Shown here piece after piece: positions 1 to 64,000 of a stretch of DNA of 64,000 nucleotides. Both the position numbers and the translations under genes were made by a program. Each line of letters starts with the position of its first letter. The first letter of the stretch is position 1. The notes under the pieces are model-generated. The model saw nothing but the letters and a program-made list of their open reading frames with translations. It was not told the origin of the DNA and made no database searches. The stretch comes from Polytrichum commune (Eukaryota > Streptophyta > Polytrichopsida > Polytrichales > Polytrichaceae), in the NCBI GenBank assembly GCA_950295325.1, contig OX485804.1, positions 30,814,001 to 30,878,000 of the forward strand, read 5' to 3'.

Positions 1-1007
1 CAATTGAGTGCTGCAATGCTTTAAAATCTGGTGCTGCAATGGCTATCACTTTGTCTGTGCTATATGGTATTCCGATGCTTTTTCTGTTTGTGGGCCACTG
101 CTTTTACTGTTTGGACGGCCCTTTCATCTTGGCAGAGGTTGGGTTTGCATCTGAAATGCCACTATTTTCCCTCCCCCGTTCTTGGCTGTACACAAATATG
201 GCATTGCTGAACCATTTTGTGCCGCTCTGTGAGTGGGTTAAGGTGTTCTGAATGTATTCTCCACCTTCCATGTTAGCTGGGGACCCCGTGTCTTTTTTTC
301 CCAGTGTGCACACACTGAAAAACTCCACAAGACCTTCAAACCCAGTCTGTCCAGCAGTCAACCTAAGCGACGAAACAGAAAACGACGACCAATGTTCGCT
401 GTGGTGGAAATTAACACATTCTGGACACAAAAATTGGCAATTGCATACAAGTTCGCATAAGGGATTGCATTGCAGAGTAGAATATAGTGTCAATAGTTTG
501 TTTCAACTGTGGATTTAAAGCAGGTTGTCCTGCACTTCTGAATGTCTAGTGCTCTCGGAATCACTGCTGCTCCACTGTATATGCATAATCCTAAATCCAA
601 ACCCAATGCCACCACACCCACTGATTGCACATTGCCACCATACACATTGATTTGTACTCCTCCACCCGTTTGTGTGCGTGAAGGTTCAACGTCCAAGAGA
701 AGAAACTGCTGCTCAATCAGGCTCTGGTCTTCGACGTCCCTCCGCGTGCTCCCCAACCCGCGATCTGCATTCCTCTGTGCACGGTGTTTTTGCTCCCGAG
801 CCAGTTGCCACAGGTCCCCTCCTCTCGCTGGCCGCCACTGCTGCTGCGTGGTCTCCGCTCCCTGCCGAAGCTCCCAGTCCATGCACCGCACCCGGGTCGC
901 CTTGTGGGCCACCTGCCAACATACCCCTACAACTTACACGAAACACAAAGTCAATCACTGCAACAAATGTTGCTGCCGTAGTTCCCATTATCGTGGCGTG
1001 CATAGAC
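1..1007. other. Left flank of Harbinger element, no supported gene
   Basis: The open frames in this stretch overlap on both strands and none has a recognisable domain. The frame of the downstream transposase is open back to about 672, but that extension has no ATG and is a low-complexity Ala/Pro/Ser sequence, so I treat it as non-coding or as an unproven upstream exon. I did not find the left terminal inverted repeat of the transposon; it may lie outside the window. Confidence 0.4.
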
Positions 1008-17624: not shown

Positions 17625-18747
17625 CTACAGGTTGAGGGAGCTGTGGATGAAGCCCAAGAGTGGGCCCTTCAAGTAGATGTTCTCCGTGATGAGCAGAGCC
17701 ACCAAGCCTATCATGGCTGCTCGCCCATTCCACCTCTCGTTCTGTGCATTGAAGGGCCCGTTGGCTCTGCTGTCGGGGGACTCTTTGTTGTACATGGGGA
17801 TCAATGTGGCCCCGATGATGATGGGCGACACGAACAGGAAGTAGATCAACCCTCGCCCCTCCGTCACCTGCTCCCACACACTCTGCCCTGTCAAAATCTC
17901 CGCCACGAACGCCCACGTGATTCCCAACATCGCCAACCGGCTGTTGATGGTCTCCGGTGCGGGTCCATCAAACTTCATCAAACTGTTGGTGCTGGTGTTT
18001 CCATCCTCAGGACGCCGCTCGTTCTCGGGTCGGTAGAATTTCTCAACAGGGGAGCCTTCGAAGATGCGGAGGGGGTCATCCTTCTTCTCGGGGTCGACCT
18101 TGGTACCAGGCTGCGCATTCACGACCAAGAAGAATCAAAACTGGTACGCTGAAGTAAATCAAGCACAGCATGTACCTGGATCTCCACACTTGAACGCACT
18201 TGAAGTCTTTCTTTCAATTCCGAAATAATTAGGAAATCACATAGTTGTTTTATTTACCAGGTTTTAACATGTACTTGCAATGTAAGAGAGGTTGGAGCAC
18301 AGGGCCTTAAAGTGCATTCGCACCTCTGTCCCAATATCTAGGATTTTGGCAAATGTATGACTTTCTACAGTGGTACCATCTACACTCATCCTAGATACTG
18401 GACAGGGGTGATGACTTTCAGGCGCTTGTGCAGGTGCCCAACACTCACTAAGTTAGTCACATTACTTGTAAGTGCAAGGATTGACACAACTTCTGTCCAG
18501 ATTCTGCAATACGGATTAGTACTAATACAAAAAGCTACTAAGGATGGTTCGATGGACATACGAGAGGAGTGTCTGTGTCTTTCTGGGCGAAGACCACCAT
18601 GCTGCGCTTGCTTTCTCGTCGAAACTGTGACTCAAGAGGAGAGATGGCAGTTCTGGTGCTCTTCACCTGCGAGCTGGCACCCAGTGACGAAATCCCAGCA
18701 GCAATAGTGTGCACACAACCCCGGCTCAACATGGTGGATAATGCCAT
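17625..18747 (-). CDS. Early light-induced protein (ELIP), copy 1
   Basis: There are two exons on the reverse strand: 18747-18562 and 18110-17625, with GT..AG borders and phase 0, giving 223 residues. Exon 1 encodes a Ser/Arg-rich chloroplast transit peptide. Exon 2 encodes the mature three-helix protein of the LHC superfamily, which binds chlorophyll and carotenoid in the thylakoid membrane during light stress. Helix 1 carries ETINSRLAMLG (residues 115-125) and helix 3 carries ERWNGRAAMIG (187-197), the two pigment-binding motifs. Helix 2 is GRGLIYFLFV...GATLIP (147-166). The start is the ATG MALSTM, which has no competing upstream ATG in frame. The intron contains a fold-back around 18323-18402. 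A tandem copy lies 3.9 kb away on the same strand. Confidence 0.93.
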
Positions 18748-21618: not shown

Positions 21619-22441
21619 TTACAAGTTGAGGGAGCTGTGGATGAAGCCCAAGAGTGGGCCCTTCAGGTAGATGTTCTCCGTGATGAGCAGAGCCACCAAG
21701 CCTATCATGGCTGCTCGCCCATTCCACCTCTCGTTCTGTGCATTGAAGGGCCCGTTGGCTCTGCTGTCGGGGGACTCTTTGTTGTACATGGGGATCAATG
21801 TGGCCCCGATGATGATGGGCGACACGAACAGGAAGTAGATCAACCCTCGCCCCTCCGTCACCTGCTCCCACACACTCTGCCCTGTCAAAATCTCCGCCAC
21901 GAACGCCCACGTGATTCCCAACATCGCCAACCGGCTGTTGATGGTCTCCGGTGCGGGTCCATCAAACTTCATCAAACTGTTGGTGCTGGTGTTTCCATCC
22001 TCAGGACGCCGCTCGTTCTCGGGTCGGTAGAACTTCTCAACAGGGGAGCCTTCGAAGATGCGGAGGGGGTCATCCTTCTTCTCGGGATCAACCTTGGTGC
22101 CGGGCTGCACACAATCAATGCATCACCGTCAGGCAAAGAATTTATTTCAAGACCTCCAAATTCACAAAATCAAAAACAAAACAGCAAGTCAGTATTCTGG
22201 AGTCCGTGCAAGTTCATGTAGACATAGAAATTGGGCTTACAAGAGGAGTGTCGGTATCTTGCTTGGCAGAGACAATCAAAGTACGCCGCAGCTGCTGGGA
22301 CTTAACATAGTGTGTGCGCTTCAATTCTAGCCCTGCGAGGAATGGACTGCTAATTCTTGCCTTCACCTGCGAAGCTCCTAGCGAAGGAAGGCCAGCCATC
22401 GTCTGCACACAACTACTGCTCAACATGGAGGAAGACGCCAT
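21619..22441 (-). CDS. Early light-induced protein (ELIP), copy 2
   Basis: Two exons: 22441-22241 and 22104-21619, phase 0, GT..AG, giving 228 residues. The mature part (exon 2) has the same amino-acid sequence as copy 1, including both chlorophyll-binding helices (ETINSRLAMLG and ERWNGRAAMIG). The transit-peptide exon (MASSSMLSSS...) and the 136-bp intron are clearly different from copy 1. The start is an ATG 20 codons inside a longer open frame; it aligns with the copy 1 start and gives a normal transit peptide. On the reverse strand a TATA-like ACATATATTC lies near 22625, with a CT-rich leader about 160 nt upstream of the ATG. Expected role: photoprotection in thylakoids under high light, cold or drying (family knowledge). 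Confidence 0.94.
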
Positions 22442-41290: not shown

Positions 41291-41298
41291 AGGTCCCA

Positions 41299-41790
41299 AG
41301 GCAATTCATGCTTGTACCGCGAACGAAATGTTGAAAGGTGGTTTTGTACTACCAAAGCAAATCATGCTTGTGCCGTGGATAGAATGTTGAAATGTGTCTT
41401 TGTGCAAACAAGGCAAATCATGTTTGTTTCATCAATGGAATGTTAGAAATTGGCTTTGTAGTATCAAACTAAATCATATTTGTGCCGCACACAGAATGTT
41501 AAAAGTTATCTTTGCGGATGAAGCCAAATCTTGTTTGTCTCGTTGACAAAATGTTGGAAGTTCACTTTATAGTACCAAGCAAATTCATGTTTATACCACG
41601 GACGGAATGTTAGAAGTTTGCTTGGTAGTAACAAACCTAATTATATTTGTGTCGTGGATGAAATGTTAAGAATGTGGCATTGTGGTACCAAGACAATACA
41701 TATTTGTGCCGCGGACAAAATATTAAACATTGGCTTTATGGTACCTAGACAAATGATGTTCATGCCGCGAGCTGAATGTGAATAGTGGAC
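41299..41790. repeat. Minisatellite, about 57-bp unit, 9 copies
   Basis: Each unit contains CAAATCATGTTTGTGCCG followed by GGA.GGAATGTTAGAAG and TTTGTAGTACCAA. Units differ by about a quarter of their bases but keep their order. The array follows the gag relic inside the same retroelement remnant. Confidence 0.8.
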
Positions 41791-42125
41791 TTACAAAATA
41801 AATGTCATGATTAATAAACAAAATCTAGCCATAAATATGCATAAGATTAAAAAAATTGTTATAAAAAGCCGTTGGGCTTGCTTTGGAGGCAATAAACTTC
41901 AATGCTTTCTGTTATCTTACTGAATCCAGCCACATTTTAGGAAAACTTTGTAAACTTGAATTAGACAACCATTGATCACTTTTATAAGCTGCCTAAAAAA
42001 ATTACATCTATAGTCTCGCTAGCCTAGTAAATGGTGACGGCTTCGGTTTTCTAGCCTAACTTCAACCTTGTAATAATGTAGGAATATATTTCCTATCACT
42101 ATATCTACTCCACATAGTTCACTAA

Positions 42126-44762: not shown

Positions 44763-45685
44763 CAATTTGAGACATGAATTGAGAGGAAAAATGCACCTAT
44801 ATCCGCGGGATTTAGGGAATATATTTGAACTATTTTTAGAAAAATTTAGGATTAAGGTACTCTATTACCGTGGAGATAGGCCAACATTTTCCCATTCATA
44901 ACGTTTATAGGTTTTTGAAACATAGAAATATTTTAATGAAATACAAAATTAGGGCTTACATCAGCATGACATCATCAATACAATATCCAATCACGTGTAC
45001 TAACATTCAGAAAACATAGTAACTTCAGAAAACATAGTGACTTCAGAATACATTAAAAAACTATATAGAGGGTAGGGCACCTCAATAAACACAATGCCTA
45101 TGGTCATAATCAGAAAGTAAAGAGAATAACCTTGAATAGGGGCCTCTTGAGGTGGCCACTTAACTGGTGAATAACCCTAAAAAGTTGTTGATTTAGTTAA
45201 AATATTAATATTGTGGCATGTACTCTAGCTCGCATGATGAAATACGTAATGAAACTAATCAAAATCCACACTTAATTGATATATGGAAAGAATTTAATTC
45301 TAGAGATCACAATGCTATTGCATTATATCTGCAATTCTATCAATGAAGTAATTAGGTTAAATTCTGAATTATGATAACGTTGCAATTACTTTAACTATCC
45401 GATTAGATTAATCCCTTCGTTTACATTAACACTGTAATATGTTTAACTATGAATGTGGTGTCACTCTCTAAGTGGATTACTTGAACTTTGTATTTAGTTG
45501 GATCGTGCATTTAAATTCGTTTAAATGGACGACATCAGATTATACAATGATTATCTTCAATTTGGGTGTTTTAATAAAAACGGTGCCTCGTATTTAATAA
45601 TTATGTGCCATCATCTTAAATAAACTAGATTCAAATGCAAAGGAGTACATATCATAGAATAATAAAATCCAATACAAAATGGAGG
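44763..45685. other. Non-coding, 3' side of the methyltransferase gene
   Basis: AT-rich DNA without a supported gene. The part nearest 45685 should hold the 3' UTR and polyadenylation region of the reverse-strand gene. Confidence 0.4.
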
Positions 45686-48600
45686 TCAGGGAATAAACTC
45701 ATCCTCACTCTCCGAAGCACTCTGATCTATGAATCTGAGTACTCTAGGATCGTATCTCAGACATGGACTAGAAGAGGCACTAGAACTAGGGGAGGAGTTA
45801 TTGGCATAAGCTACTGCCATATCCTTTGCATAACAAGGAAGTCGCATGCTAGAACTAGGAGGTGAACCGTAGTCTAGTGAGCGTCCGCCTTGAACCATCA
45901 GACTGCACCAACAGAGGACAAATGACGATTGTTAGAATCCTTCAAATTAAATGCAACATATTCGAAAAATAAGTTTAAAATGACAAAAGACTTACTCACA
46001 TAGATTAACTGCACCCTGTTGAGGGAGGGTATCGTCGTCATCGTCAAGGTCTACAAAGTGGGTTGGATCGACCCCCTGAGAGTCCGACCCTGCGACCTGA
46101 AGTGGCTGTAGGAGTTCTTCGTACAATTCCTTGTCTCCCTCAAGTGCCACTATTGCCCTGTTAGAAGATTGTGCTGCAAGAATCGAGGCACCTACAAAGA
46201 CCGAAATAAATGAATTAGTCGCATGTGATTGTGTAAGCCCGAATCCCCCTCACCCTTCGATTGCGTCCTAGTCCGGGTGAGGGTTCATGGACTACATTCA
46301 AATATGCAAGTAACAATTGTACCCAAGGAAAGAGGATTGGAAGAAGTGGTGTGTATAACACCTTTCTTTATTTTATTTTATTTCACAAGCAAGCGTTTAA
46401 GAACACTCACTTCACAATACAATGTCCTTGGATTATATTAACTGCTTTATTTCTCTATGGTCCTACTGTTTACCCACTTCGCTACGGGAAACACTCAACC
46501 TATTGTGGAGTGCAAGTGTGCAAGCCCGCCTAGGCCCTTACTTCTGTTGCCGCAACCTCCACCATTTCCTCGGCTGTCCCTGCATTACTCCTTCTAAACC
46601 CAGCAATGCGAACCCCGAGTCACCACCCTACCAGCTATGTCTCTCCTCCTTTCCGTTTGTTGCCAGCCATTGTACCTCCAACCCTCGTAACAGCTTGCTC
46701 TCACCTTCTTCCCCTTATTCGCCAATTTCATCCACCATGACTAACTCCGGACCCTAACTCCCAGCCGATGTCTCCTTGCCCTGATGCACGCCAACCTCAC
46801 CGCACATCCATCCCCCCTTACCTCTTCTGACGAGAGGCTAGAATCTGCCACCCGATCTCTTCAATACGTGCACAAGAGGGCCGACCCAGTAGCAATTGAG
46901 GGCCACTGCTTTGACTCCCGCGTCCCCAGTTCCCCATCCCTTGTAATCATTTCCTCCGAGCCATTGAGATCACCCGATTGTCTTTGATGACGTTTCGGAG
47001 AATCAGAGCTTCAATCAATTTGCAGTACTCGCTAGCGGCACGTCCTTGAGTCCTCACAGAGTGCTACAGAACTTAGAACATCAACCACATCAGTTCCATT
47101 GTGTAAGTGCATCATTCTTCAAACAATGTGTGGGGGCCGACCCCCTTGTAATGACCCTACACTCCACCAGCCCAATTGCTGAACCGTACAAGGAAGTCCT
47201 CGACCCTCAAAGTGGAATTTTGCACCTATACGTTTCACGACGTCGGTGGATACGAGATTGCTGCTTCCGCTATGCTGCTTCAGCGTTTTACAGTTGCTAA
47301 TTGATGCACTGACAAAGAGGACTATAAATCGGAAGGTAACGACAGGAGTACTTAACCAACACTTAATTCATGATCCACCGAATTCATCTGTGCAAGTATA
47401 GCAGTAGCCCTAGTATGGAATCACTAGCGGATCATCTCCCTCAACATTTACTGTCAGAGCGGTCGCATTCTAAACTAAGCCCCCGGGTTTTTTGCTTTCG
47501 CTCAGATCGAAGTACCACATGATGCAATTGCTCTCGTGGATGCTGGATTGCTTGTCCGTCACCTGACTCTGTAGGGACTGTGAACCAATTAATCTTACCT
47601 TTATCCTCAGCTGAGCTATTCTCGGTCAGACTTTGGACTTCTGTGCTGGAGTGAGAACACCGGACGCAGAACCCTCCTCAGTGAGTTCGGCTCCACTGGG
47701 TCCATGTTTACACTACACCCTTCCCTCAGACGCGTAAAGATCCCGACCACAAACTCGACAGTACATAGCCTAGCGAGTTGGAGCAGACTGTGTATTGAAC
47801 AGCTAAGGTGATATTAAGAAGGGAAAATAAGCAAGTGCCGTAGTGAAACTGTTAACACCATCCTCGAGACATCATATCAGACAGTAATCCATGCTCGACC
47901 TTCGAATCCTTGCTAATCTTCCTGTGAGAGGAGAATGGCCGTAGATCCCTTCTCCTACCTCACGACGCCGCTCAGATTCACACAAAATTTTCAGATCTCC
48001 GCAACAAGTTGCAGCTAAGCTACACTTGTGAAGCGCATGTGGAAGCATCTAAGATATGGCTCTTTATGATATAGCTAAAAATGAGAATGAGGGAGAGAAA
48101 AGAAATCATTCTTCACTGGAAAGAGACTGCCCTCTTCGTCGACCGTCGAAGTGCGCCCCTCGTTAGGCCTTGCAAGCTCCCTGCCTCCTTCTCGTTCCTT
48201 GCCACCTCAGTCACGTTGCCGGTTGGCTGCCCTTCTCCTTAACTCTCCCAGGTTTCTATTCCTTCAGCATGCCCTTTTTTTTCAAGCAAGGTGATCTCCC
48301 AGCAAGTCCTGGATCACCATTCTGCCAGAAGCAACAACCACTGCACTAAAAAAACGTACCTCTCGTAGAGGCAGCGCTTCCGCCTCTTTCTCACCCTACG
48401 CCCCTTCCCTCCTCCTAATGAGCCCTCCTCTCTTCTACCTCTCTACATGCATTCATTTCCCATCGGAGCAGGGCTTTGCCCTCTCTCAGTTCTCTCTCCT
48501 CCTCTACCTCTAGACATGCATAATGAGCTCCCTACCTCCTACCTCCCGAGACCCCTCCAACCTCTACCTTTTTTCCCGGGTTGCCCGGCATCTTTCGGGC

Positions 48601-51600
48601 CGCCCGAGAGAAAAAGCGGGTCAAGACCTTTTCTTTTGGCCTCTCCTCCTTTCCAACCCACTTTCCCTCTTCTTCTCTTGACTTCTTCTCCCCCTAGACT
48701 CCTAGATAACTCAAACTCATTGATAGATTGATAGATACATAAGATAAAATAAAAGTAACCCACCATAGTTGTTAGCAAGTAATCACGCTCGTGTTATGGT
48801 ATAAGTTGAGGTTTGTTGTGGTTGTGGTCACCAAGTCATGTTTCCTCGGTTGGTTGAGGAAGGATGTTAGTATTACACTTAGACGGTCCGGGTTCGATTC
48901 CCGTTGAGTTCGTCTGATCGTTTTGTGTCTTACACATGACTTGGCTAGTGATTTCTAGGCAGGAAAATCGTATCAACCAACCGGCTCCTACCCCTCTTCC
49001 TGAGCTATCGTGTACACCTTATTCAATAAATAATGGTCGTTATTATGACCCACCTTCTTTTATCCTATTGGTATTTCTTGGTTGTTTTTAGTACGTTGTT
49101 TACTAGAATTACGATTAACACTTATGTCTTTTACTCCCCATTAATCCTTTACGGTTTACCGCCCTTCCTAGCTCTTATTCCCCCTTTAACTTAACCCGAT
49201 CGAGACTTTTGACCATTCGCGTTGCTTATCCTTTTGACTAACCCCAAAAATACCATATCAAGGTTTTAACAAGATTTTACGGTTAAGTCTTAATGTGGGC
49301 ACAAGTTTGGGCTCACAAATTGAATTGCCTAAGTCTTGAGAGATAAGAATGTTGAACAAAATACTCATACCAGTTCCAGCAGTGAGGTCACATATAATCC
49401 CCCCTGGAGGGCTAAGGCCACTGATTAGAAGCTGAAGCAAGGACATTGCCTTCTCTTTAGGGCCCCTCCAGAATTTGTCACCGTCCTTGCGCTTGAGTGC
49501 AATATCAGCGGTGACAATGTTGAAAAGAACGTCATCACTTGCAAGGTCAACATCCTCAAACTCGTCACTAGAAGAAATGACAAACTCCTTCGGTTGCCTA
49601 ACCAAAGGTGTGGAGAAATACCGAACCAACACAATCGCTTTGAATTTCAGAGTCTGGACAACAACCATATGCTCGAATTGTTAGCAATGTGATTCTAGTC
49701 ATGAAGGACTGAGAACTTGAAGAGCAGATTCACATCAATATACAGTCTAACCTCAAATAAAAAACCACAATATTTGCCCCTAATCTAAGGCTGCCTTCCC
49801 CTTAACTCAGCACATTCACATACATATGCTGCCGAAGCACATATCAGAAACCACAACATCTGCCCCTAATATATGGCTGCCTTAACAAAACCCAACAAAT
49901 ACACATACATATGTTGAAAATGGTTAAAATTACGGACCCGCTTGGAGTTATGCATAGGGTGAGTGAGGTGGAGAGAATTAACGACGGTCCATTCCTCCTT
50001 GACCTCTAGATTGTTGTTGTAGAGAAAGCTCAAGACCTCCTTCTTGATTTGCACGTTGTTAGGATAAAATAGAAGTAGAGCCCCGTCGTCATGAAGATAG
50101 CCTTGACAAAACCCAATGATGAACTTGATGAAGTTTGGAACTTGCTTATTCCAATTTGGAACTTGCCCTGGGAATTCGGAAACGCCAGGGACAGGCAAAC
50201 CATCGGGATACTCTGCAATAATGAGGTCCACCGCACCCTTCTGCACCACCTTGCCTGAAAAGAAGAATTCCCTGGATGCTCCAACCTTTGTTTCAAAACA
50301 ACCATAGCGTTTAGTAGAGAATTAATTGGTGATTAGGGGCATGCTAGCTAAATTGAATGGGAATGAAGCTGGATATGTACCTCACTCAGAAAAGCAACCA
50401 TGTCATCGTATGTGGAAGGGAATTTGTTGTTTTTCGCCTTATAATCCAACATTCCGTGGAACGAGTCATTGAGTATGAGAACCCGAGGAGAAGCAGAGGA
50501 GGAGGTCCACGCCTGGGAGGACAACATTGCCTTTACCGCAGGTGGGACAAACCTGATCGTTTTGGCTTGACTAGGAGCTCCGAGGTGAATACGCTTCGGA
50601 GCAGGTGCACGTGGAGGATGAGAGCTGAGAGGCTCTGCAAATTCAACATCTGGAACACCGATATCACTACCTGTTGCACGAATATCTTCATCCATTGGCT
50701 CCTCAACCAACTCAACAACCTTCCGCTTGGATCCCCGAGGCCTACTCCCTTTAGTGGCCGTTTTGCTTCTGGAGGAGCCACCTTTGGGGGGTGTGAAAGA
50801 CTGTGAGGCTGGACCTGAGGCAGCGGGAGAAGGTAAGAGAGGTTGGATTGAGTCCCTTAGTGCAATGTCAAAGGGAGGAGGTTTTTTCAACGGGCAGTCC
50901 AAATACCACCCGCATTGGTGAAAGTGAACTGGATCCCATGTTTTTAGAATTGCAGGAGTGAACATGGAATCTGGACTTTGGATATCCAGGTAGTTAGGGG
51001 AAAAAGGTGGTACCTTAGAGATGGCCTTCATGGGTAGGAGAACGTACCGAAAATACATGTAAAGAACCCTACGGACAGCCTGAACAAAAAAATGTTGTTT
51101 CTCCGGGGGGTTGTTCTTGTGAGCACCGTTATCTCCACCCAACTCAATGAAAAAGGCAAACTCCCAAAGCTGACACCTCATCGCTTTGACGTAATCAAAG
51201 ATCGTTAAGATCGGATCTTCGCCATCGGGATTGTAGCCAATAATTTCCCCAAGGTCAGTGAGAACACCTGAAAAGAGCTCCTCAACCTCCACTGCTATCT
51301 GAGGCCATGCACACAAAAATGTTGTCTTATTGGTTGCAATCAAATGAGCTCATTAGGGGTCAATCAAATGACAACATGAAATGTGAGATGAATACTAACC
51401 TGTGCCCACCATGTTGCCCGATTAAGCCAATCCGGAAACTTGGAGTCGGCGAAGCTAGCTTTCGGAAAGCGATGCGCATCCCGAATTGCCGCAGAGGAGT
51501 TCCACCTTTGGAGCCACTTCACCATCATGCTGGGAGGCATCGCGGAAGTAGCTAGCATATACAATTTTTCCTGGAGCATCTCAGGTTCATCGAACTTTTC

Positions 51601-52837
51601 ATAATGAGCTTTTATTTCCTCTAGAAAAGCATGAGTTAGCCTAGGATCCGCAACAGGCAAATGCTTCATGAGCTTAGCGACAAGCTTATCCTCGACCTTC
51701 TTCACAGCCTTCCTAACCCATTCCTCTGCATTAAGATCCGTCCAATTGCTAGAATCTGGATTTTTCATCTTGTACTTGTCTTCAGCAACATGTGCAGCTT
51801 CCGCAATCTCTTGCTATAGTTCAAACAATTAATTATATGAGTTTCATGAATTCCCCATTGAAAATGAAATGACACGATAACATTTCAGTTAGACATTACC
51901 TGATAAATGACCGCTTTGAGACCTTCAACGGTGAGGGTGAACCAAGTGCGATTCTTTTCAGCCTGCTTCTTCCTTACAGCTTCCAAAATAATTGGAGAGA
52001 CCAAACCCTCGAAGTACGACAGCGGCTGTGGAACAAGATTCTGGATGCGAAATAACTTGTGTACTAGGTTCGTGGTGACGTGAGATTTCTGATTCTTCCT
52101 GCAACGCCAAAATGTATATAAGAATGCGACATATATTTAAACATTCATGAGTACTTCAAACATTCACAGCATGGATGAGGATCTTACCAATTCACTTCGT
52201 GCAGAGCGGCTATCACTGAGGGTATGTCTCCCCTTGGGTTAAAAATTACAACCTCAACACAGAAATGCCAATTGATATCATGAGTATGAAACTGCTTAAT
52301 GATGGGCATCCATGCCTGGAGCCGATGGTTCCCACCCCAAACCATGAACATTTTATTAGGAAAAACCTTCAAGTCATTATCTGATAGAAGTTTCTTCTCG
52401 AATTTCTCATTCACCTCCTTCCACTCCGGTGACCACTTCGCCACCACACTCGGGGTAAGGTCATTGGTGTGGCCATGGTTTTCCTCGAGTGCAAAATAAA
52501 AGAATCCATTCCCCTCCATATAGCCATCGGTCATAAAATGTGTTGCAAACAGTGATACATCGTTCTTAAGGGAAGGTCTCACTACCGGAAGAGACATCAT
52601 GCGGTAGAGGTAAATAAAAAGGCGACCCTTCTGTTTTGGTTGCCATTTTAGTTTCTCTAACCGAGAAGCTGTTGGAACACTCTCCTTAATGGCGAGGTCG
52701 TGAAGCTTCATCTTCAACTCAACATCCGTAAGGCGGACTGCATCAAAGAGTAGCCGTATAAGTACAATATCATCCAAACGGCATATCCTCCTAACTGCCC
52801 AGCCTCTATTGCAGAGATCATAACTTTTACATACCAA
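45686..52837 (-). CDS. ParB-like domain/beta-class DNA amino-methyltransferase fusion protein
   Basis: Eight exons join in frame with GT..AG borders: about 52837-52188, 52098-51900, 51813-51400, 51298-50381, 50285-49938, 49653-49371, 46191-46000 and 45888-45686, about 1,050 residues. Exon 1 holds a ParB/sulfiredoxin-like domain (FATHFMTDGYM, then VWGGNHRLQAW, then VEVVIFNP...IAALHEVNW). Exons 2-4 are helical, then Pro/Ser-rich and basic (KGSRPRGSKRK, likely nuclear). Exon 5 has the motif IV region (VDLIIAEYPDGLP) and YLHDDGALLLF. Exon 6 has FWRGPKEKAMSLLQLL and ICDLTAGTG (motifs X and I), and exon 7 continues GASILAAQSSNRAIVALEGD. Motif IV before I defines a beta-class N6-adenine or N4-cytosine enzyme. 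D-P-P-Y is replaced by E-Y-P-D, so catalysis is uncertain. No ATG starts exon 1 in frame, so the true 5' end is unresolved. Bacterial and phage proteins pair these domains (knowledge); the role here is unknown. Confidence 0.83.
46192..49370. other. Large intron of the methyltransferase gene
   Basis: At 3.2 kb this intron is far longer than the other six (about 80-290 bp). It contains GC-richer stretches with open frames on + at 46422-47300 that have no recognised domain, pyrimidine-rich repeats at about 48180-48700, and a tRNA-like B box near 48890. It probably grew by insertion, but I cannot define element ends. Confidence 0.45.
48840..49010 (+). mobile_element. tRNA-derived SINE-like segment
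   Basis: GGGTTCGATTCCCG at 48890-48903 is a consensus RNA polymerase III B box. A possible A box (GGTTGGTTGAGG) lies about 40 bp upstream. The rest does not fold as a tRNA, so a SINE or decayed tRNA gene is more likely than a functional tRNA. Confidence 0.4.
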
Positions 52838-53148
52838 CTCTGAATGATAAGCTCCTTACATCGTTAGAAAGCCTGCTTCAGCATCTACAATATTGTAAAA
52901 TTTCACACCAAACTAAAACACTGCCTAGATATTATGGGTTAGAAACCTAGTGCCGTCAACGGCATGCCTCCAAGCTGACCACCCTGTATTACAGAGTCCA
53001 TAACTTTGACATGCCAACTGTAAATGAGGAGGTCTTTACATCGTTGGAAAACCTACTTTACCATCTGCAATGTCATGGAATTTCAATCCAAACCACAATA
53101 CTGCCTAAAAATTATGGGTTAGAAACCAAGTGCCATCAACGGCATGCC
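52778..53148. repeat. Tandem duplication of a 185-bp unit
   Basis: Two adjacent units (about 52778-52963 and 52964-53148) share GCATGCCTCC, CAGAGTCCATAACTTTGACA, TTACATCGTTGGAAA, ATTATGGGTTAGAAACC and CAACGGCATGCCTCC. The first unit overlaps the start of the open frame of exon 1 of the methyltransferase gene. Confidence 0.8.
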
Positions 53149-55129
53149 TCCCAATATTGAATATTGGATTGGTTACGTTAGTAAAAATCTGACATTTAAA
53201 ATAATAAACTAAATTTTATGTCAATTTCACTATTTTGAACTAAAATATTTTAAAAGTTTAATATGAATAATTTAAGAGAGCACATAGTTTTTATAAAATA
53301 AAATAGACTGATTAATATAAAGACAATTAGATAAGATCTGGCCATAAATTTGCATAAGATCAAAATATTTGGTATATATAAAACCTACATTAGTTCCACT
53401 CAATTCATTTTCTTATACAAAACCGTTTTACTTCCTTTCGGGCCATTGATTTTTTTTTAAAAATTGTCTTATTGATTTTCACTATATTTTTATAAAATTT
53501 TGTAAACTTGAAGTAGGTTTCCATCGATCATTTTCGTATACCATCTAATAAGATATATTTTTAAATAAACTCGTCTATTTTAAGTATAGTATTTATTTGG
53601 AAACTAAAATCATACACATTAGTTTTAAATGACCACATGTGCCTCATTTGTATTAAATTCATATCTTCCGTAATTTTCAATGTCCTCCTATGTACCTATT
53701 GACAAATAGTTCTTAGATATTCGGATATGTATCCTAATAAAATTTGGCCTCATTTCGGACTCTTATTTTTTTTGCTCGTTGGTAATTGAAGCGTATTTTT
53801 TTAAAATCATCACTGCAAAGAACTTATGGTCATCTTCAGATGTTTCAACATCATAGATTGTAAATTCCCTAGTACAATTATTTGTCGTTTCATACCTTAC
53901 TAAGCTTTGTAAAAATATGTGGCATGCTTATTTTGGCCTATTTCTTTGTCAAAAACTTTGACCTAATACCTTGCATGATGAGGAGTTTAATTATGCTATC
54001 TTATTGGAGCCTTTTATTCTTGACAAATTTGGATTTTGATTTATTGTGTCTATAAATTCTAACATTCAAAGTTGAAATTTTAAATCTACATCACCATCTT
54101 ACAGGCTCTCGCATACATTTGATAGTTTAGTTTTTTAAATTTTCTTCGAAGTTAACGAGATTCCTTTCAATACACACTTTTAATTCATCCCTTATAGGCT
54201 GCTTTATCAAGGTCAGAAATGAATACATGTTTTAATATCCATGATAATTCATTTTCAACATCTTCATGAGAGAATAATCAGGGTTAAGAATACCTGAACC
54301 CATACATATTAGTTTTCAAGGTTGAAATGAGGATGTCATTCCATCTTGTACGTACCATCCTTGTAGCACTATTAATATCCAAACAACCTCCTAGCCTCAA
54401 TATCTGACACACTTGCATAAATGTATCCACCACCACTTGAATAGTTTCTTATATGTTAGTATTTGATAGAGTGACATGATTTAGCCCAATGTAAGAGCTT
54501 CCCTAAGTCCATGATGATGAGTAATGTTGGTGTCCATAGTACGTATATATGCTATTGAATTAACCAAATTATTATCCATAATTTTAAGATGAACTTAAAA
54601 ATATGCAAATTAAGTAGAGTTATTATACAATTCAAATTTTAGGAGAGAATTCTCAACCAAAATTTTAGAATATGGAGTTATTCATGCCCACAACAATTCA
54701 AGAGAACCAAGAACAAATTATCACAATAGTTTTGATTACCAAGATAAAAAAAATCCCATCTTGGATTGTATAGGGAGGGTCTGCCCAAAGCAGACCCCAA
54801 GGAAATACATGAAATTACTATGCAAGATAACAAATTCCTTGTTAATTTTTGTACAACCTCTTAAAACCACACATATATGTATAAAGACAACAACGTAAGT
54901 CAACACGAGTATTCACATATGAAAATTGAATCTCAAAATAGGAGGGAGATAATTACCGGTTTTTAAATTAACAGCTGCACAAAGTTACTGCAAAATTGGG
55001 TTATAGGTAATGATGTTTATACAATCAGCTGAAACAACCACATGAGTTCAACAACTTTAACCATCTTAACCACCGCAATCATCACCAGTGAGGGCCTGAT
55101 TCCAAATCAAGATGGAAAGAAATCATAAA
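53149..55129. other. AT-rich intergenic DNA
   Basis: No frame above 60 codons with a recognisable domain. If the methyltransferase gene has a further 5' exon or its promoter here, I cannot see it. Confidence 0.4.
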
Positions 55130-56087
55130 AATGGCCCAAGTTCATGATGATCAATCACATTATCAAGATATTGATCCCAGCCAAAGCAAGAATGTTAGGA
55201 TAGCTAAAGGAGTGAACCAGACTAGCATTGAAGTGAGAATGCAATCTTGCATTAATATGAAGACTTCGTAGAAAGACAAAGGAAAAACATCCCAGGTGAG
55301 GGTAATAGAGGATGTAGTATTCAGCACAGAAATGGCAGCTTTAGATTTTAAGCCAGCTCGTGAAGAATAAACATTCCTACAAATGGTAGGGCTGGATAGA
55401 TTTGTGACTAGGGTAACATGGGAAGGTATGAACACTTCAGTAGTTCAGGAGGTCATCTCAAACTTGAATCTTGATACCATAGACTCGATTATGAATGGAC
55501 AAGGATTTCCTATTTTCAGCAAGGATTAGAAAAACAAGATGAGATCCATATTTTATATTACCACTTTTTCAACAAGGAGAGAACCATACACTCCAAAGGT
55601 CAGAGCTGTGGAGATCTTTCTGAGTTACCACGAAAAGATACGGACTAGAGCTGGAACATGCAAGATCGCAAACTGCACCATACCAGAAACGAGACGGCTT
55701 TTAAGGTTTTTCAACTCTATTTTCTTATTAAAAACTAGTGCCAACACAATTTCTTGTTCAGCTATTGCACACATTACAGATGCTCTAAATGGGAAATTAG
55801 TGGATTGGCCAACATTGTTCCAAGAAAATTTGATAACAGAGCTAAAAAACATTAAAGATGGGTTATTCAAAGACAAGACCACAGGGTTAAAGACCATCGT
55901 AGGACCTCCTCTCACCATGTTGCTCATCACGGAATGGTTATTAACCGTTCAACAAGAAATTGAAGCAGGCATACTAATGCCAGCTGACTTCATTGAGAAA
56001 CCAGTTTCCAAGAAGATAAAGATGGAACCATCAATGGAACTTACCACGGGCGAGCCATCAGAAAAGAGGCACCACAGATTTTTGTAG
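55130..56087 (+). pseudogene. Degenerate transposon-like ORF
   Basis: A single reading frame runs through the region with a few stops: TSIEVRMQSCINMKTS stop, VVFSTEMAALDFKPAREE stop, RFVTRVTWEGMN..., then an open part from 55539 of 182 residues that contains AIAHITDALNGKLVDW, LKNIKDGLFKDK and a basic SKKIKMEP tail. I do not recognise the family. The shape (broken frame, isolated in AT-rich repeats, ending in a charged tail) suggests the N-terminal or gag-like protein of a retroelement or another transposon protein. No function is assigned. Confidence 0.4.
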
Positions 56088-56199
56088 CCATGGCCGAACC
56101 CACCATAGCCAACCAAAAACAATTCCTAACATTGTTATAGATTTAGAACTCCCTTTACAGGAAGGCGAAACATAAAACATTTTTAATACAACCATGGAA

Positions 56200-56480
56200 C
56201 CAACAGTCAGCAAAAATATAAATAAAAAATAAATATCAGACCATTAATAGTAATAATATACTATAAATATTAAATATTAAATATCATACCATAGTAAATA
56301 TGATAATATAATCAGTAAATACGAGGCAGTAAATAGCAAATATGAGACACTTAATAATAAATAATAGGCAGTATACAACAAATACAGGATAATAATTTAT
56401 AAAAAGTAAATAATAGATAGTAAATAATATATGTCGTATATAGTTGATATTATATTGTATACAATAAATAAAAAATAAAG
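56200..56480. repeat. AT-rich degenerate tandem repeat
   Basis: Words of the type CAGTAAATA and AATAATAGGCAGT recur at irregular short intervals for about 280 bp. It is low complexity and non-coding. Confidence 0.5.
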
Positions 56481-56529
56481 AGTAACTTGGGGCCTCTATA
56501 TACAAATGTTTTAAATACTTCTAATATAT

Positions 56530-56725
56530 CATGCGCGGAGTGGTGGCTTAGTGGCTAAGGCCTCTATCTGGGAGCCGAGAGGTTCAAGGATCAAACCCCT
56601 TGGCCCCCGCCCTAGGCTTAACCTACTAGGTAAGTGGCTAAGCATTTAGAACTATAGGTGCTTATAGATGGCAAGGCTCGGGAGGTGAGGATTGGACTTA
56701 CTAATGATGGATATCTCTTTTAAAA
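56530..56725 (+). mobile_element. tRNA-derived SINE-like element
   Basis: GCGGAGTGGTGGCTTAGTGG contains a good A box (TGGCTTAGTGG at 56544-56554). GGTTCAAGGATCAAACC at 56581-56597 resembles a T arm with B box. The spacing of about 35 bp is tRNA-like. A non-tRNA body and an A-rich tail near 56720 follow, which is the SINE layout. Confidence 0.55.
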
Positions 56726-58350
56726 AAATAAGACCACTCATTATTCAACATATCAACCAATGATAGCCCTACACATGCATGCACGCTTTAATGTTAAGTA
56801 ATAATTTAGTGTGGAGTCCGTAAAACAAGTAGTATATTCAGAGATCATAAGCAATGGTCCTAAACATATTGGCTATGTCCAAATCAACGATTCATGGGGT
56901 GTAGGGCATGGTCCCCCAAGGCATGTCGTAGACAACATAATTTCTAGTAATATATGATATTAAATCATGTATTTGTTTACTTCAATAAATGTCATGTTAC
57001 ATGTCTAGATTGTACACAATCTCTAGTAGTGTGTGTGTCATGTTCACAAAAACATTACATATGGCAGCTAAGCTCAAAACATAGTCTAGTATGTCACTAT
57101 ATTGTGCATAATAACTATTGTTTCAACCAAGTAATAAGTTAAGGATGTAATGTGTAAACTTACATACCTCATTTGTATGTATTCTCAATATCTCAACTAC
57201 TTTCCATAGTTTGTGTACATACCAACATACTAGTTCAAAGTAAAATAGTAACTTTCACAAATATAAGACATAAAGTGAAAGAATCTCCAAACATGAGTAA
57301 TATACTATTGTTGGTGTTGAAAATGTGAAGAGTTAGCCTCACCTGCACCCGTGCCAACCCAAACATACAATTGTGTGTTACAAAGGCGTGTGTTAGGCGT
57401 CTTCAGCTAAGCTCAGTTGCAATCCATGTCACACATTTACCTCACCTGTAAAGTCCATTAAATGTTTGTAACTACCAATACTCACTACAAAACAATGAAT
57501 ATACAAACTTGCTCTTTTGTCATATTGTGTAACTTCTTGGATAGTAACAATCTGTAATACACCAAACACCATGCACCTCCACACTGTTCTTGTATCCACC
57601 TTCTAAGCCAAGAGTTTGCTCCTCCAAGCATGTAAAAGAGTTTTCACATGGAGGGGCTTAGGGTTTAAGTATTGGTTTAGTAAGTTATAGTGGCTGCTTT
57701 AGGTCACTGAAAACCCTAAAACGTGGAGCATGGTAACTCTCCCTTACCATGGTAAGTTAACTCATGGTTAGGTTTAGTTTATTGTTTTAACTGTGGTGTA
57801 GATTATACTAAGTGTCTTAGTCTTAGTATAAGGTCTTAATCAATTTTCCAAGACTGTTACATTTAAGTACATCTCAATGGCAAAATCTAGAGCAAAGCGG
57901 GAGAGAGAGAGAGAGAGACACACACACACACACACAAATGCATCTATAACACTATATTTGTTAATCAGAGACTTTTGAAAGTCTCAAAATAAAATCTGCC
58001 CATAGTTTGGGATGCCAATATTGTGGGCATACGGAATATTGGGAACATCAAGAACATAACGATTTAAAAAGTTGCACATAAAGAATATTCTTATTTCTAA
58101 AAATAGAGAATGTCAATTAAAATGCAAACGTGAGCTCCATGTGGAAAATAACAATCGAATCTAAAAAAACAAATGGTTTATGTCATTATAGAGTTTGGGA
58201 TGCGCATCCCATAAGTAAGGCTCTTATGAATTTGGATGGCACATCCCAAACGTATACCACAATGGAGTGTGACAAGTCCATGAAGTCTATTAAAAACCAA
58301 GTCTACTAAGCGTCCATGTTTTTCGCCATGAACTCCCACCTATGTTATGT
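56726..58350. other. Intergenic DNA with a compound microsatellite
   Basis: A (GA)n(CA)n tract lies at about 57900-57937. A GGGATGCGCATCCC palindrome occurs at about 58198-58211, with a related half near 58230. No gene is supported. The part next to 58350 is the 3' side of the reverse-strand gene. Confidence 0.45.
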
Positions 58351-61300
58351 TTACACATCTCCGTCTTCCGCTTCATATCCATTATCGGCGTCATTTTCCG
58401 CAGCTGCAATACGTGCCAAGTTGTCTTTGGCAAAATCTATATGTTTTTGGGGGATGGTCATTGTTTCTGTTTTGGAACCTTTGCGCGGCTTCCAAGCACA
58501 AAGTATAGTATCCGTGTTTATCCAAACCGGTGTGTACGCTGAGTCCACTGTCCACTTAAAATTCTTTTTGGTGTCCCAACCTAAATAAGTGCGTAGCACG
58601 TTCTGGTCTTTAGTACTTGGACGACAATATTCCACCTCAATCTGACGAAAGTTGGGGCTAGTTCGAACAAAATTGGGTGAAGACAATGCTTTCACCAACC
58701 AAATTGGCTTGGGATGTTCCTCATCCCCTGCTCGTACAAGGACCAAATAACCTTCATGGCAATCAACACCTACACGAAACGACGGTGCCGGTCGATTGCG
58801 GGCAGGGCCAACGTAATGCTCGTCCATTGCGAACTCTTCACGAACGTCTCCATTGCTAAAAACCATGGTGTCGGACTCGACAACCGTCAAACGACTTTGT
58901 GGCCAAAATCCTTGTGTTAAAGTTGTACGGGTGTCGCCACCAAGTGTCATTAGGGCCGAGCGAATGCGATCCCAATACGCAATCAAAGGTTCATGAGTAT
59001 CTCTAACACGTCTAGTGATGTCCTCCTCACACAACTCTTTCCAATATTCAATGAATCCGGATATGCCTTTGATGATTTCCGGCCCATTCCTCATGGGGTC
59101 GGGTTTGCAAGGCTTTGGATTCCCATCCGGGAGCAAACATTTCCCATCATTGTCTTGACGCCATACGAGTATACCATCATCCGGTCCCCAATTAGGAGAT
59201 GTGCACAAAAGCTTGAATTGCATGGCTGGGAGACCATCATCCCTTATATAGAATCGGAATTGTTGTGCTTTGGTATGCCCCACCAAACGGTCCCCTCCCT
59301 TCAACATGTATGACTTGATGAAGGCCTTGAAATCTGGTATTTCCTCAATCATGTGCGGAATTACTGGCATATGGTCCAAATCCATATACGATTTCATAAG
59401 AAGAGGTATGGTTGGAAAATCTTCTTCATGCAACTTCATGCTCCACCGTCCGAATGATGCATCAATGTCGTCGTGTGTATGTCCCACCATCAAAAACGAC
59501 ACAAACACCTCCTTGAAGATTCCTTTCGCCATGAGCAATGACCAAAAACAAAATACGTATCGACATTTGTTGTCTTTCACGCAATTATCAAGTTGAACGT
59601 GAAGAATTGGAGGCAATGGTTTTGCACAAATAGGTTCTCCCGGTGGTTCTGGCAATGACGACATACAAACCTCCTTCCCCGCAAGCACTGCTTCGTAAAG
59701 GGGTGTCGTTCCACAACCATCAAAAAGTGCACGTGATGAATGTAACGGCGGCTTCTCCAGATCGCGCAAGAGTTTTGCAAATGAACCCACTGTGTGGTTA
59801 GCATCGCCAGGGTAAAAATCCAACCCATAATGGGCATACTTTACGTCTCCATGGCCGTGGGCAATCATCCCTGCGAAAAAAAACAAACGATGCTTGAACA
59901 ACAACAATAACAACGACAACTCCAACGGAGGTATGAAATTGGACATTTGGCAAACACACCCAGTAAAATTTGAGAGAATTTGAATACATATTTGTGATTC
60001 AATACAAACCTGTGACAGATACGGGCAACTTGAAGAGACCATCCGTGGCCTTAATTTTGCGTGCATAACAAGGGCATGCGGTCTTGGCGTGGTCCATTTT
60101 ATCATGGATGATTGTTAGAACCTCTGTAGGCCTCATTATGGATAGAGCACGGTTCTTGTAGTAATCTTGACGGTGAGCCTCTTGGTTGTTGACATGTTCA
60201 ATATATTTTGCTTGGTGTCTAGTGTGGGATTCGGTGCCTATGGGGTGGGCGTCTCAAAGACCTTTGTATTTTTCACACATCGTACACCTAGCGAACTTGT
60301 CCCCAGGTCTCTTCAAAATGTATTCGGCAAACTGTTGGTTTTTAATCACACTCAACTTGGACAAAGAAATGGGCCCACATCCCGCTATGCGACCCACTTC
60401 ATTGATGTCCGTTAATATGTTCTTCCATTTTGTACCCGTGGGCAATACCATTTGTACAACTTTCTCCCCTGACGACAATGTCCTCGTCTTGTGGGGCATT
60501 GCATCGGCCAATGGGACTATGATGGTGGAGAGTGTCGCGGAGGCTTGGAGTGTAGCCTCCCTAGATTTCTTTGTGCCCGAATTGCCATGAAATCGAGAGC
60601 GGCGACCGAACAATGAATATTTTTGAAACCTATAAAAGTCAGACTTTGACACGGCGTGGATGGTATACCACGCAGTACAACACACTTCCACATTCTCAAG
60701 TGTGACCACCTTACGCCCATGGGTGTCAGTGTGGACATTTCTGTGGACCTCGAGTTTCTTTGCCGATCTCATACGGAAATCCGCAAACCACATCTCTTGA
60801 CGTAGGGACTTAATTTTCTCCCGCGGGAAAAATTGGCAACATTTCCTCTCACAACAGTCTTTGGCGGACACAAGACGGATAGTTTCGTCTCCCAATATGC
60901 AATCCCGTCGACGTTCCTTATCTCCACGAGGCACACGGTTAGAATCATATCTGCGTAGGCCTTTGCGAGGACGTATTTTGGTCAACAAAGCTAATTGCGT
61001 TTGATTATGGCGGCGCTCATGGTCCAACAAGCTTACTCCGTCATGGAGAACCCGACAAAGAGGCCATCGACGCAAGGAAAATCTCCATGTCACCGGGACG
61101 TCAAGCGGAAGCAAAGAATTCAAGATGCACACACCCACATCATCGGGACCAAGGGGGTTGGCATCAACACAATCACGGGGATCAGAGTTTCTACATATGC
61201 CATTTGCCACGGGGACACCAACATCGTTGAAAAGAACAACATCAAGGCCCACCCATTGCTCCCTACCGAAACCGGCACATAACGGAATGTCATCATTGTC

Positions 61301-61486
61301 ATCCCCGGAACGTATAGATTGTTCGTGCGCTTCAAATGATTTGTGGGAGGATGCATCCACAAACCCACCCATGACATTTGCCATGCCATGACTACCCGCC
61401 GATGGCGAAGATAGTTTACAGTCATCATCGGAAGAGGAAGCTTTTGTGGACAACTCCAATGAACTATATCCAACGTGCATCGCCAT
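58351..61486 (-). CDS. DUF7869-like domain protein with one in-frame stop
   Basis: Two exons, 61486-60010 and 59870-58351, join in phase to 999 codons including the stop. The first in-frame ATG (MAMHVGYSS) is used as the start; the frame is open further 5' from a GTG only. Exon 1 has a cysteine-rich region (CCERKCC) and CTMCEKYK, a possible zinc site, then IIHDKMDHAKTACP. Exon 2 has HVQLDNCVKDNKCRYVF (about residue 585) and FLMVGHTHDDIDASFG (about 615-632), the signature I associate with DUF7869, whose D and E/D spacing could be an RNase-H-like nuclease (inference). A low-complexity acidic tail ends the protein. Codon 411 is TGA (60256-60254) where CGA would fit; no other break is present. 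The function is unknown; many relatives look transposon-linked. A striking palindrome array lies just upstream. Confidence 0.72.
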
Positions 61487-61630
61487 CCAACCTAAACAAA
61501 CCACCAATAAAATGACCAACACAACAACCACCGCAATGCATACAAAAGTGGATACGAGATATGCCTACATATATGGCTCAAAAATCACAAACAACTCTCG
61601 CCACACCGTTGCGGGACCTCACATATGAAG

Positions 61631-62717
61631 ACGAACGTGCGTTCGACAACAGCTCGATGACATGCAAATCCTACACGGGACTCAGACGTCCCTGCACAAC
61701 GGAACCCCATTCCGATATATATTACCCATGAAGGGCTTTCAAATTGGGTCGAGTCGCCAATAAAACATTGGAAGGGTTGTCCACCACCAAGGGACAACAC
61801 AAGCACATATATTCACGAACGCGCGGACGAAAATATCAACCCAATATACAATAAAATCTAAATGGGACATATTATAAGAGCACCTAAAATATACTTGCCA
61901 CTTTATCCACATGCAGTAAGCATCATATTTGATGGGCGAGTGTTTACGAACGATCGTTCGTAAGTTCCAGCCGAAACTTAGGGGCGGATGCAAACGACCG
62001 ATCATCTGTATGTCACAGCCGCGACAGTGTTTGGAAAAAATGATTGGACACGTCCGAATAGAGGTATCTATAGCCACGTTACAGGGAAACATGTTATCCA
62101 ATAACCAGTGGAAAATGACAGTCGACATCTATCACTAAATCATGATTGCATAGATACGAACGAGCGTTCGTATCTATCATAAACACGGTGTAGTCCTCTA
62201 CACATGCTTGCGTCAACAGGCCTGTTGGTGGATGCGTGGACGGTGGACAGGTGGTATTTACGAACGTGCGTTCGTAAAATTCAACTAACATAATTCTCCG
62301 CGGACACAAACGGTAGTGAGAAATACGAACGCTCGTTCGTATTTAACTTGCATATTGTTAACGTGGCCAATGCACTGAAGTGTATAAATTAAGGAATGTT
62401 TTTTGGATTCTTGAAAAATAATCCCAGGTGATATTTACGAACGCACGTTCGTAAATATCCCATCACCAGATGTTCCGTTGGAGAAAACGGTTACACGGGA
62501 ACTCATGCGCGTCTGGGTCTTGAAGGTAGATATACGAACGTACGTTCGTATATCATCGACACAATTTTCGTGCCTAGTTCTGTCTATAAGGAACTCAATG
62601 TCGAGTACGGTTGTGATCAACTTACGAACGCACGTTCGTAAACAACTCATATCATATCGATGTACCTATTGTACATGTGCTACCAACTCACGTTTACGAA
62701 CGTGCGTTCGTAAACGT
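61631..62717. repeat. Array of spaced palindromes, core TACGAACGNNCGTTCGTA
   Basis: Eight full copies: 61944-61963, 62151-62176, 62257-62278, 62321-62344, 62430-62459, 62529-62554, 62622-62641 and 62690-62717. Two weaker copies lie at 61631-61645 and 61814-61830. Centre-to-centre spacing is 210, 104, 65, 112, 97, 90 and 72 bp. The central two bases vary (AT, AG, TG, CT, CA, TA, CA, TG). Beyond the core, the arms have different bases in different copies yet stay complementary. The spacers show no repeat between copies. The array sits 150-1,230 bp upstream of the start of the reverse-strand DUF7869-like gene. Confidence 0.95.
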
Positions 62718-64000
62718 CCGGTATTTGCGGCGGTATATACGGGTATGTGCAGTCTGTAGTGGACCTGGGTGGTGTAGGGTTGGCGCACAAGAAAATGGTT
62801 TGAGCGCGTTCCAGTCATGTCTGTGGAGCGCACACTTGGATGTGCCGCAGAAAAGAGCTCTTCTGTGGGGGGGAAGAGCTTTAAGTACCTTCCCCCCGAT
62901 GGTTCAAAATTCCTTGGATGCTATTTAAAAAGCGGATTCCCGCCGCCTACTTTGACCTAACAATATGCCATTCCATCCATGCGCAATATATAAATAGCAT
63001 TATGTATGGAACATGTCTTGCGTGCACGCAACATATTGTAAATCTATAAATCCGTCGCACACCTTAGTTGTTACCAAGGTCGCACGAAAATATGTCTATA
63101 TGTCTATATGTCTATATGTCTATATGTCTATATTTATATGTATATATATGTATATTTTACTATTTTATATATGGATTATTATATTATATATATAGGTTGA
63201 TGGGTTAACATTGAGTATTAAATTATTTGCGACTAAGGTGTGAAGTCCAAGTGAATTGATGAAGGTCTAAGTGATATATATATTCACACACACAATGAGG
63301 TAAGAGTGGCTAAGAACATATTGTGGAATCCCCTAAAATTGTAGGTATCATATGATTCACATAAAAAAAATGCTTGTAATATGGTCACCAAGTGCATGAA
63401 TACCAATAAAAAGTCGCTTAATCCATAATGGCTTGTGCTAGGTAGATTGAGGACATTTGGAACTGGAGGCTCACCAAACATCGGCCCATATTAATATGAA
63501 TCATTGTTGCAATTCATCATTGGTGAAAATTAAAGTTTAATGCACTAGTATTCGATCGTTAGTTCAAGTTGACACCTAATTAAATGACTTGACGTCCTAT
63601 TGGAAATTCACTTTAGGTCCACCATGGTGTGGAAATGGATAACGAATTTGGAATGGTGCATACAATAGTATGCACTTACAATTATATATTTGTATTATTT
63701 GCAACAAGAAGTATGTGCATGACCATAGCTTAACTGTTGATTTAAGTTGAAGTCTTATACCATTCATGTTATAATAAGACTAAGTGTGTATTGTGTGATC
63801 AAATTGCACTCAAAACTATTAAGGTGAAAGGGCTAGCATTTCAAAATTCACTCTTCACCCCCTAAACCAATGTTTTATATCAAAATGACAATTATTGGCA
63901 TGAGTCTAGATTATTATAGTTGCTATGACCCAAATAAAGCAATTTCCAATCGAACCAACATTGGTAGACCATTTTGACATGATGCGCATAGACCACAACA
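62718..64000. other. Right flank with a microsatellite, no gene
   Basis: A TTGCGTGCACGCAA palindrome lies at about 63013-63027. A TATGTC microsatellite followed by (TA)n covers about 63090-63150. The rest is AT-rich with no recognisable coding sequence. Confidence 0.5.

Follow-up and report, generated by a model that had tools for sequence, protein, structure and literature searches.

Why should one short palindrome recur over and over in the DNA upstream of a moss gene? In a 64,000-nucleotide stretch of the genome of Polytrichum commune (contig OX485804.1, positions 30,814,001 to 30,878,000; hereafter the window), the 18-bp core TACGAACGNNCGTTCGTA is present in eight exact copies that span 61945-62712, upstream of a gene with a DUF7869 domain. 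Here we describe the site, the transposon that carries it and the related families that carry other palindromes, and we argue that the palindromes are probably family-specific, fixed-geometry sites for a dimeric DNA-binding protein in a giant Sola-like transposon, the binder most likely being the product of the second gene of the element.

The palindrome and its geometry

When up to 3 mismatches were tolerated, nine core matches were found in the window (the eight exact copies and one at 61630), where 0.08 would be expected, and in 100 dinucleotide shuffles of the window the number of such matches never exceeded one. These counts confirm the array of eight cores with two weaker copies that had been described in an earlier note made from the letters of the window. 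The start given there, 61631, corresponds only to a weak copy, the exact cores beginning at 61945 (Table 1). The spacers, which had been called unrelated, are not wholly so: 62248-62314 shows 70% similarity to 62425-62491, and 61941-61966 repeats 62619-62644 in inverted orientation at 92%. Neither an Rfam scan of the window, run at gathering scores, nor a search for tRNAs gave a hit.

The site is abundant well beyond the window. In the 408-Mb genome (64 contigs, numbered C1, C2 and so on, with the window on contig 2) 4,680 exact copies of TACGAACGNNCGTTCGTA were counted, the reversed control gave 0, and fewer than one copy is expected by chance (arithmetic from the base composition of the window). 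Among the 100 matches listed, all on contig 1, core positions were mostly clustered. With so many exact copies, the possibility raised in the note that the array is a chance local event lacking relatives in the genome fails. A core scan of viral contigs found seven contigs with one site each.

Half-site spacing was surveyed in 266 kb of fetched sequence, with spacers of 0 to 20 considered. All 134 inward-facing pairs of exact half-sites had a spacer of 2 and none was found at any other distance; direct (same-orientation) pairs were absent, and pairs facing outward, of which there were 17 with distances of 15 or 16 bp, were neighbours within tight arrays. Lone half-sites were rare, as 134 of 159 forward half-sites had a perfect partner, 23 a partner matching at 7 of 8 positions and 2 a poorer one. 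Between copies, differences were observed at 49 of 592 core bases, compared with 23 of 74 bases of the central NN and 3,351 of 14,268 other aligned bases, coding sequence included. Divergence of the core was therefore about one third of that of other bases, although in two of seven comparisons it was reduced only to about half the surrounding rate. The site is thus two-fold symmetric at a fixed spacing, and its centre is free to vary. The pressure for symmetry proposed in the earlier note is borne out by the constant spacer and by conservation of the core relative to its surroundings, and a dimeric binding protein, one of the options it offered, fits both features; we infer the binding itself from sequence. 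Neither a palindrome-building mechanism nor a cruciform, also offered, is needed to explain the data.

Symmetry continues past the core in each of the eight copies (Table 1), for a total of 27 bp where the local base composition predicts ~2.7 bp (negative binomial P 5e-11). When right arms were permuted among copies, only 23 of 40,320 permutations reached the observed symmetry. The perfect inverted repeats of up to 30 bp that had been reported attain this length if the central NN is ignored; perfection through the centre is limited to two of the eight copies (20 and 26 bp). When gaps were allowed in extending the arms, the test was weaker than without them (499 and 734 of 40,320 permutations were as good), and we therefore make no claim of longer, eroded palindromes.

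A wider test of the arms used 53 non-redundant copies out of the 132 with flanks in the fetched sequence. The half-site proved to be longer than the core implies: going outward, the first position is always A or T, and the second is A in 80% of cases. Symmetric arm bases numbered 123, versus 83 +/- 6 after shuffling of the right arms (maximum 108 in 5,000 shuffles) and versus a mean of 94 when shuffling was confined to first-base classes (maximum 117 in 2,000). Arm symmetry is thus better than expected once the core is fixed. Much of it is a longer half-site consensus, beyond which some genuine matching within copies is left; the proposal that left and right arms changed together, the main point of the earlier note, is weakened accordingly.

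The carrier element and its genes

The array lies in a 16,002-bp element (copy W) that extends from 57948 to window-equivalent position 73949 (C2:30871948-30887949), its right part lying beyond the window. The element is bounded by terminal inverted repeats (TIRs) of ~30 bp, and the right-end repeat, AACACTATATTCGGTA..., was found both in the window copy and in copy U (C1:639070-648560). The left end at 57948 is common to the five copies compared, namely W, U, V (C1:2231389-2246924), Y (C1:2532922-2544980) and Z (C1:2265808-2290279); in V, Y and Z homology ends short of the right inverted repeat. Both copies with two ends are flanked by 4-bp target duplications, CTAT for the window copy and CATA for copy U. 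Since inverted repeats, shared ends and target duplications are found across copies, the array carrier is a TIR DNA transposon with 4-bp target duplications. As far as the accessible part of PMC10741241 goes, Sola transposons make a 4-bp target duplication, encode a DDD transposase and are present in the moss Physcomitrella. On the strength of this description, with 4-bp duplications in both copies here, we call the present element Sola-like but do not assign it to Sola.

Gene 1 is interrupted by one modelled intron (Table 1), and its product models as a predicted DDD/RNase-H-like transposase. Because exon 1 contains a single in-frame TGA, the window copy looks inactive. The relatives of gene 1 that bear a name come from Ceratodon and Physcomitrium. 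Searches for DUF7869 confirmed none of 70 candidates in viral contigs and 3 of 70 in contigs of prokaryote genomes, the latter probably being eukaryotic contamination, and within the library of papers searched no publication matched DUF7869.

Gene 2 begins at window-equivalent 66698, beyond the end of the window, and is transcribed in the direction opposite to gene 1. Its middle domain was modelled as a ParB/sulfiredoxin-like domain, with ParB structures as matches. No significant Pfam domain was found (weak rows for DUF6551, E 0.03, and DUF1015, E 0.043, were unused), a PHROGs ParB-like profile matched one of 15 gene-2 sequences, weakly (E 0.096), and a profile search of solved structures gave nothing significant; Foldseek searches with the models of gene 1 and gene 2 returned no row at E 0.001. 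The C-terminus resembles a methyltransferase by eye only, in a region where profile searches gave no match and the model is of low confidence. Predicted proteins related to gene 2 continue into intron and flanking sequence, and the core appears as a peptide (YERSFV, RTCVR, TNARS etc.) in 9 of 12 gene-2 relatives, the exceptions being P0122, P0127 and P0132; such peptides were present in none of the 120 DUF7869 proteins listed.

The 21 exact cores of the window copy are distributed along the element, with eight upstream of gene 1, seven upstream of gene 2, two in intron 1 and three in intron 2 of gene 2, and one near the 3' end of that gene. Modelled exons contain none of them, and intron 1, with its two cores, is just 116 bp long. 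Among cores with one mismatch, at least one falls within the reading frame of the last exon. The exact core nearest the left end of the element is 4 kb away from it. The placement of the array next to a DUF7869-like gene in the earlier note was correct as far as it went: the full unit is a two-gene transposon, and its sites also mark gene 2 outside the window.

In 57 decayed cores with 1-2 mismatches, CpG transitions made up 26 of 71 changes. The observed/expected CpG ratio was 0.90 for gene 1 and 1.05 for the spacers of the window array (array A); over the 1.3 kb of the element that follow this array it was 0.67, and over the 5 kb left of the element 0.38.

Among W, V, Y and Z, synonymous divergence of gene 1, taken in frame from the C-terminal exon, is ~0.11-0.16, versus 0.45-0.81 for gene 2, and the right parts of W and V are again 93% identical. 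The pattern is as if a module of gene 2 and its arrays had been exchanged between elements. Pieces of another gene on the minus strand at 49258-52855 of the window contain, by eye, a ParB-like stretch ('GGNHRLQAW') and a methyltransferase-like one ('DLTAGTG'); they show no Pfam domain, and no recurrent palindrome was found nearby. Two of these pieces have partial relatives at C1:2258500-2259613, where a divergent DUF7869 gene lies close by.

Related families and a copy without recognisable genes

A paralogue of gene 2 at C1:2473716-2479536 (24% identity over 227 residues, E 5e-11) is accompanied by 10 exact copies of a different palindrome, TTGGGTCGNNCGACCCAA, every one with a spacer of 2. These sites lie upstream of the first exon, before a frame that by eye resembles exon 2 of P0132, and further on; two are within that open frame. 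In a count of recurrence by palindrome type the figure for this locus was five, and in 20 shuffled controls each type was seen once at most. A third palindrome was found on L008, a contig of a cyanobacterial metagenome-assembled genome with a full DUF7869 frame; the relatives of this frame that carry names in the alignment are proteins of mosses, at 50-64% identity. Here the 23-letter, odd-centred GTTTAGCTCGANTCGAGCTAAAC occurs upstream at 33, 113 and 488 with 2, 0 and 1 mismatches. With up to 9 mismatches allowed there are 14 sites, versus a random mean of 3.2 and maximum of 9, those with 5-9 mismatches being near the random level. The near-palindrome count on L008, 4, equals the shuffled maximum of 4 (mean 1.0), and the case for this contig is accordingly one of motif recurrence.

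In all three types, CG is located close to the centre of the palindrome. In two other relatives (C1:2258500-2265800 and window 45000-57900) no recurrent palindrome was found. Judged by these sequence comparisons, the architecture is common to some families and the letters of the palindrome are family-specific.

Homology between copy U and the window element covers the two ends and the middle. At the thresholds used, no more than ~170 bp of gene 1, close to its 5' end, was found, and nothing of gene 2; other genes were not sought. The copy nonetheless has 33 exact cores versus 21 in the window copy, in tandem arrays with periods of 34 and 160 bp. Because this gene-less copy retains its arrays, the sites seem to work in cis for the element and not merely for expression of its genes.

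Candidate readers of the sites

Taken together, the fixed spacing, symmetry and conservation of the site argue for a dimeric protein, the family-specific letters argue for a protein encoded by the element, and the predicted ParB-like fold of gene 2 makes its product the first candidate. On this reading, which we hold to be the probable one, the gene-2 protein would bind the palindromes as a dimer through its ParB/sulfiredoxin-like middle domain, and its presence at promoters, introns and 3' regions would allow the element to recognise its own copies. By analogy with VANC, which acts for the Mutator-like VANDAL elements, such recognition might counter host silencing; alternatively, it might recruit something to the element's DNA or modify it. 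Protein and site would co-evolve, each family keeping its own palindrome, and gene-less copies could persist by retaining sites. Bacterial ParB dimers load on palindromic parS sites of ~16 bp. A eukaryotic system of the ParB-parS kind, in which the ParB-fold dimer of each family loads on its own arrays, spreads, and marks or modifies chromatin as an anti-silencing code of self and nonself, is a more speculative proposal that we put forward with some doubt; gene-less copies would profit here too, and new families could emerge by joint change of protein and palindrome.

Two other proteins might read the sites. The gene 1 transposase, or a cut-and-paste complex, could use them in transposition in the manner of internal subterminal repeats, as would suit both the DDD/RNase-H-like model of gene 1 and copy U, which keeps and even expands its arrays without recognisable genes. 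The arrays are not subterminal, however, since they stand well inside the left end, in introns and in mid-element, and synonymous divergence of gene 1 is low beside that of gene 2; a role in transposition is thus unlikely. The location of arrays 5' of both genes and within introns is what would be expected of promoter and intron enhancers for a host transcription factor, amplified for raising transposon gene expression. Yet a related family in the same genome has, at corresponding places, a palindrome that is quite different, arrays are retained in a copy without recognisable genes, and single half-sites are almost absent, all of which make a host factor an improbable reader.

The remaining alternatives require no dedicated reader. 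Cruciforms, RNA hairpins that serve as sources of small RNAs, or products of palindrome-building replication errors would account for within-copy arm matching above shuffles and for a central pair free to vary, but the core letters are conserved between copies beyond what mere pairing demands, the spacer is invariant and much of the outer symmetry is a common half-site consensus. Judged on cores that had been selected by exact sequence, we consider such origins very unlikely. We give least credence to a separate miniature parasite that prefers this transposon as its insertion target: very high copy number and dense clusters would be in keeping with it, but the eight cores are flanked by no common direct repeat, gains resemble tandem duplication (the two periods of copy U), and the matching intron of another family holds another palindrome.

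Several known systems invite comparison, and those published are described here from the accessible portions of the papers cited. In Ectocarpus, the giant transposon Sola1-1_Ec32 (Sola-1) has an accessory gene for a ParB-like protein with a DNA methyltransferase; such proteins, similar ones being reported from green and red algae, are suggested to bind and epigenetically modify their own transposon (PMC12477816). Like Sola1-1_Ec32, the element described here is a giant DNA transposon with a transposase gene and an oppositely transcribed ParB-like accessory gene; unlike it, it inhabits a land plant, and its methyltransferase is only the C-terminal resemblance noted above. Cis sites are what is added here, as the main text of PMC12477816, where accessible, contains neither 'palindrom' nor 'subterminal' and names no target site. 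In Arabidopsis, the targets bound by VANC are arrays of family-specific motifs in the noncoding regions of VANDAL elements, and the consequence is loss of methylation (PMC5735166, PMC10398659). VANDAL elements are likewise multi-gene plant transposons with many short, family-specific noncoding motifs that differ between related families and multiply by tandem repetition; here, too, family-specific noncoding arrays were found to differ between related families, two other relatives being without arrays. Unlike the present sites, VANC motifs are 8-9 bp long, those of VANC21 stand in one orientation, and 'palindrom' occurs in the accessible text of neither paper; the element here also differs from VANDAL in its 4-bp duplications and DUF7869 gene.

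Bacterial ParB-parS combines a ParB-fold protein, predicted here, with clusters of a palindrome of fixed length, whereas the present system involves a eukaryotic chromosomal transposon and thousands of sites, and no ParA was recognised in its two genes. Fungal transposons with TET/JBP dioxygenases are similar in that a DNA transposon carries an enzyme acting on DNA methylation, for which there is only a resemblance by eye here; their accessory protein is a different one, and palindromic sites are not mentioned in the accessible text (PMC12730594).

The kind of transposon and the kind of accessory protein are therefore already known, and the palindrome arrays appear to be new: a search limited to one library of papers did not find palindromic, family-specific, fixed-spacing arrays in print as likely targets of an accessory protein. 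Arrays of fixed geometry beside a ParB-like gene provide a concrete, testable target for the proposed binding of such proteins to their own element. If each ParB-like protein does read its own palindrome, this would be a second, independent case of sequence-specific transposon self-recognition after VANC, built on a bacterial-type DNA-segregation fold, and escape of a transposon from silencing without genome-wide deregulation would be open to simple binding assays.

Table 1. Positions of the cores and of other parts of the element (window numbering unless stated; extra pairs are symmetric pairs beyond the 18-bp core).
Feature	Position	Strand	Remark
Left copy of 4-bp target site duplication CTAT	57944..57947	.	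right copy outside window, from C2:30887950
Left terminal inverted repeat	57948..57976	+	24 of 29 first bases match reverse complement of right end C2:30887949
Gene 1 exon 2 (modelled), DUF7869	58351..59870	-	PF25273, E 2e-38
Gene 1 intron (modelled)	59871..60009	-	139 bp
Gene 1 exon 1, N-terminal part (modelled)	60010..61486	-	in-frame TGA 60254-60256
Degenerate core	61630..61647	.	3 mismatches; mismatch scan
Degenerate core, weak copy	61814..61831 (~61815)	.	
Core 1	61945..61962	.	NN = AT, 1 extra pair
Core 2	62155..62172	.	NN = AG, 5 extra pairs
Core 3	62259..62276	.	NN = TG, 2 extra pairs
Core 4	62324..62341	.	NN = CT, 3 extra pairs
Core 5	62436..62453	.	NN = CA, 6 extra pairs; 30-bp palindrome with NN ignored
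Core 6	62533..62550	.	NN = TA, 4 extra pairs
Core 7	62623..62640	.	NN = CA, 1 extra pair
Core 8	62695..62712	.	NN = TG, 5 extra pairs
Intergenic part of element	62713..64000	.	cut by window end
Array B	window-equivalent 66102-66665		outside window
Gene 2 intron cores	window-equivalent 67998, 68056, 69454, 69531, 69608		outside window

Several other repeated or duplicated features were observed. A reading frame of ~61 amino acids, C-terminal in L021:7629-8447, recurs in L026, L028, L029, L030 and L022 (72-98% identity), at many sites in and around copies of the element, and looks like the end of another, repeatedly inserted repeat. Frames resembling HAD/FCP1-like phosphatases by eye ('FLVLDLNGVL') are found among these transposons at L023:823-1608 and at C1:2479990-2480838 (L038) and are perhaps part of another repeated element. 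Within the window, 654-3588 contains a DDE_Tnp_4 transposase on the plus strand and a Myb/SANT-like frame, below the Pfam cut-off, on the minus strand, as in PIF/Harbinger. Near-identical open reading frames of ~167 amino acids at 17625-18134 and 21619-22122, by eye a light-harvesting-type chloroplast protein, represent a recent duplication, and a tandem repeat of period 56 at 41296-41793 comprises eight or nine diverged units.
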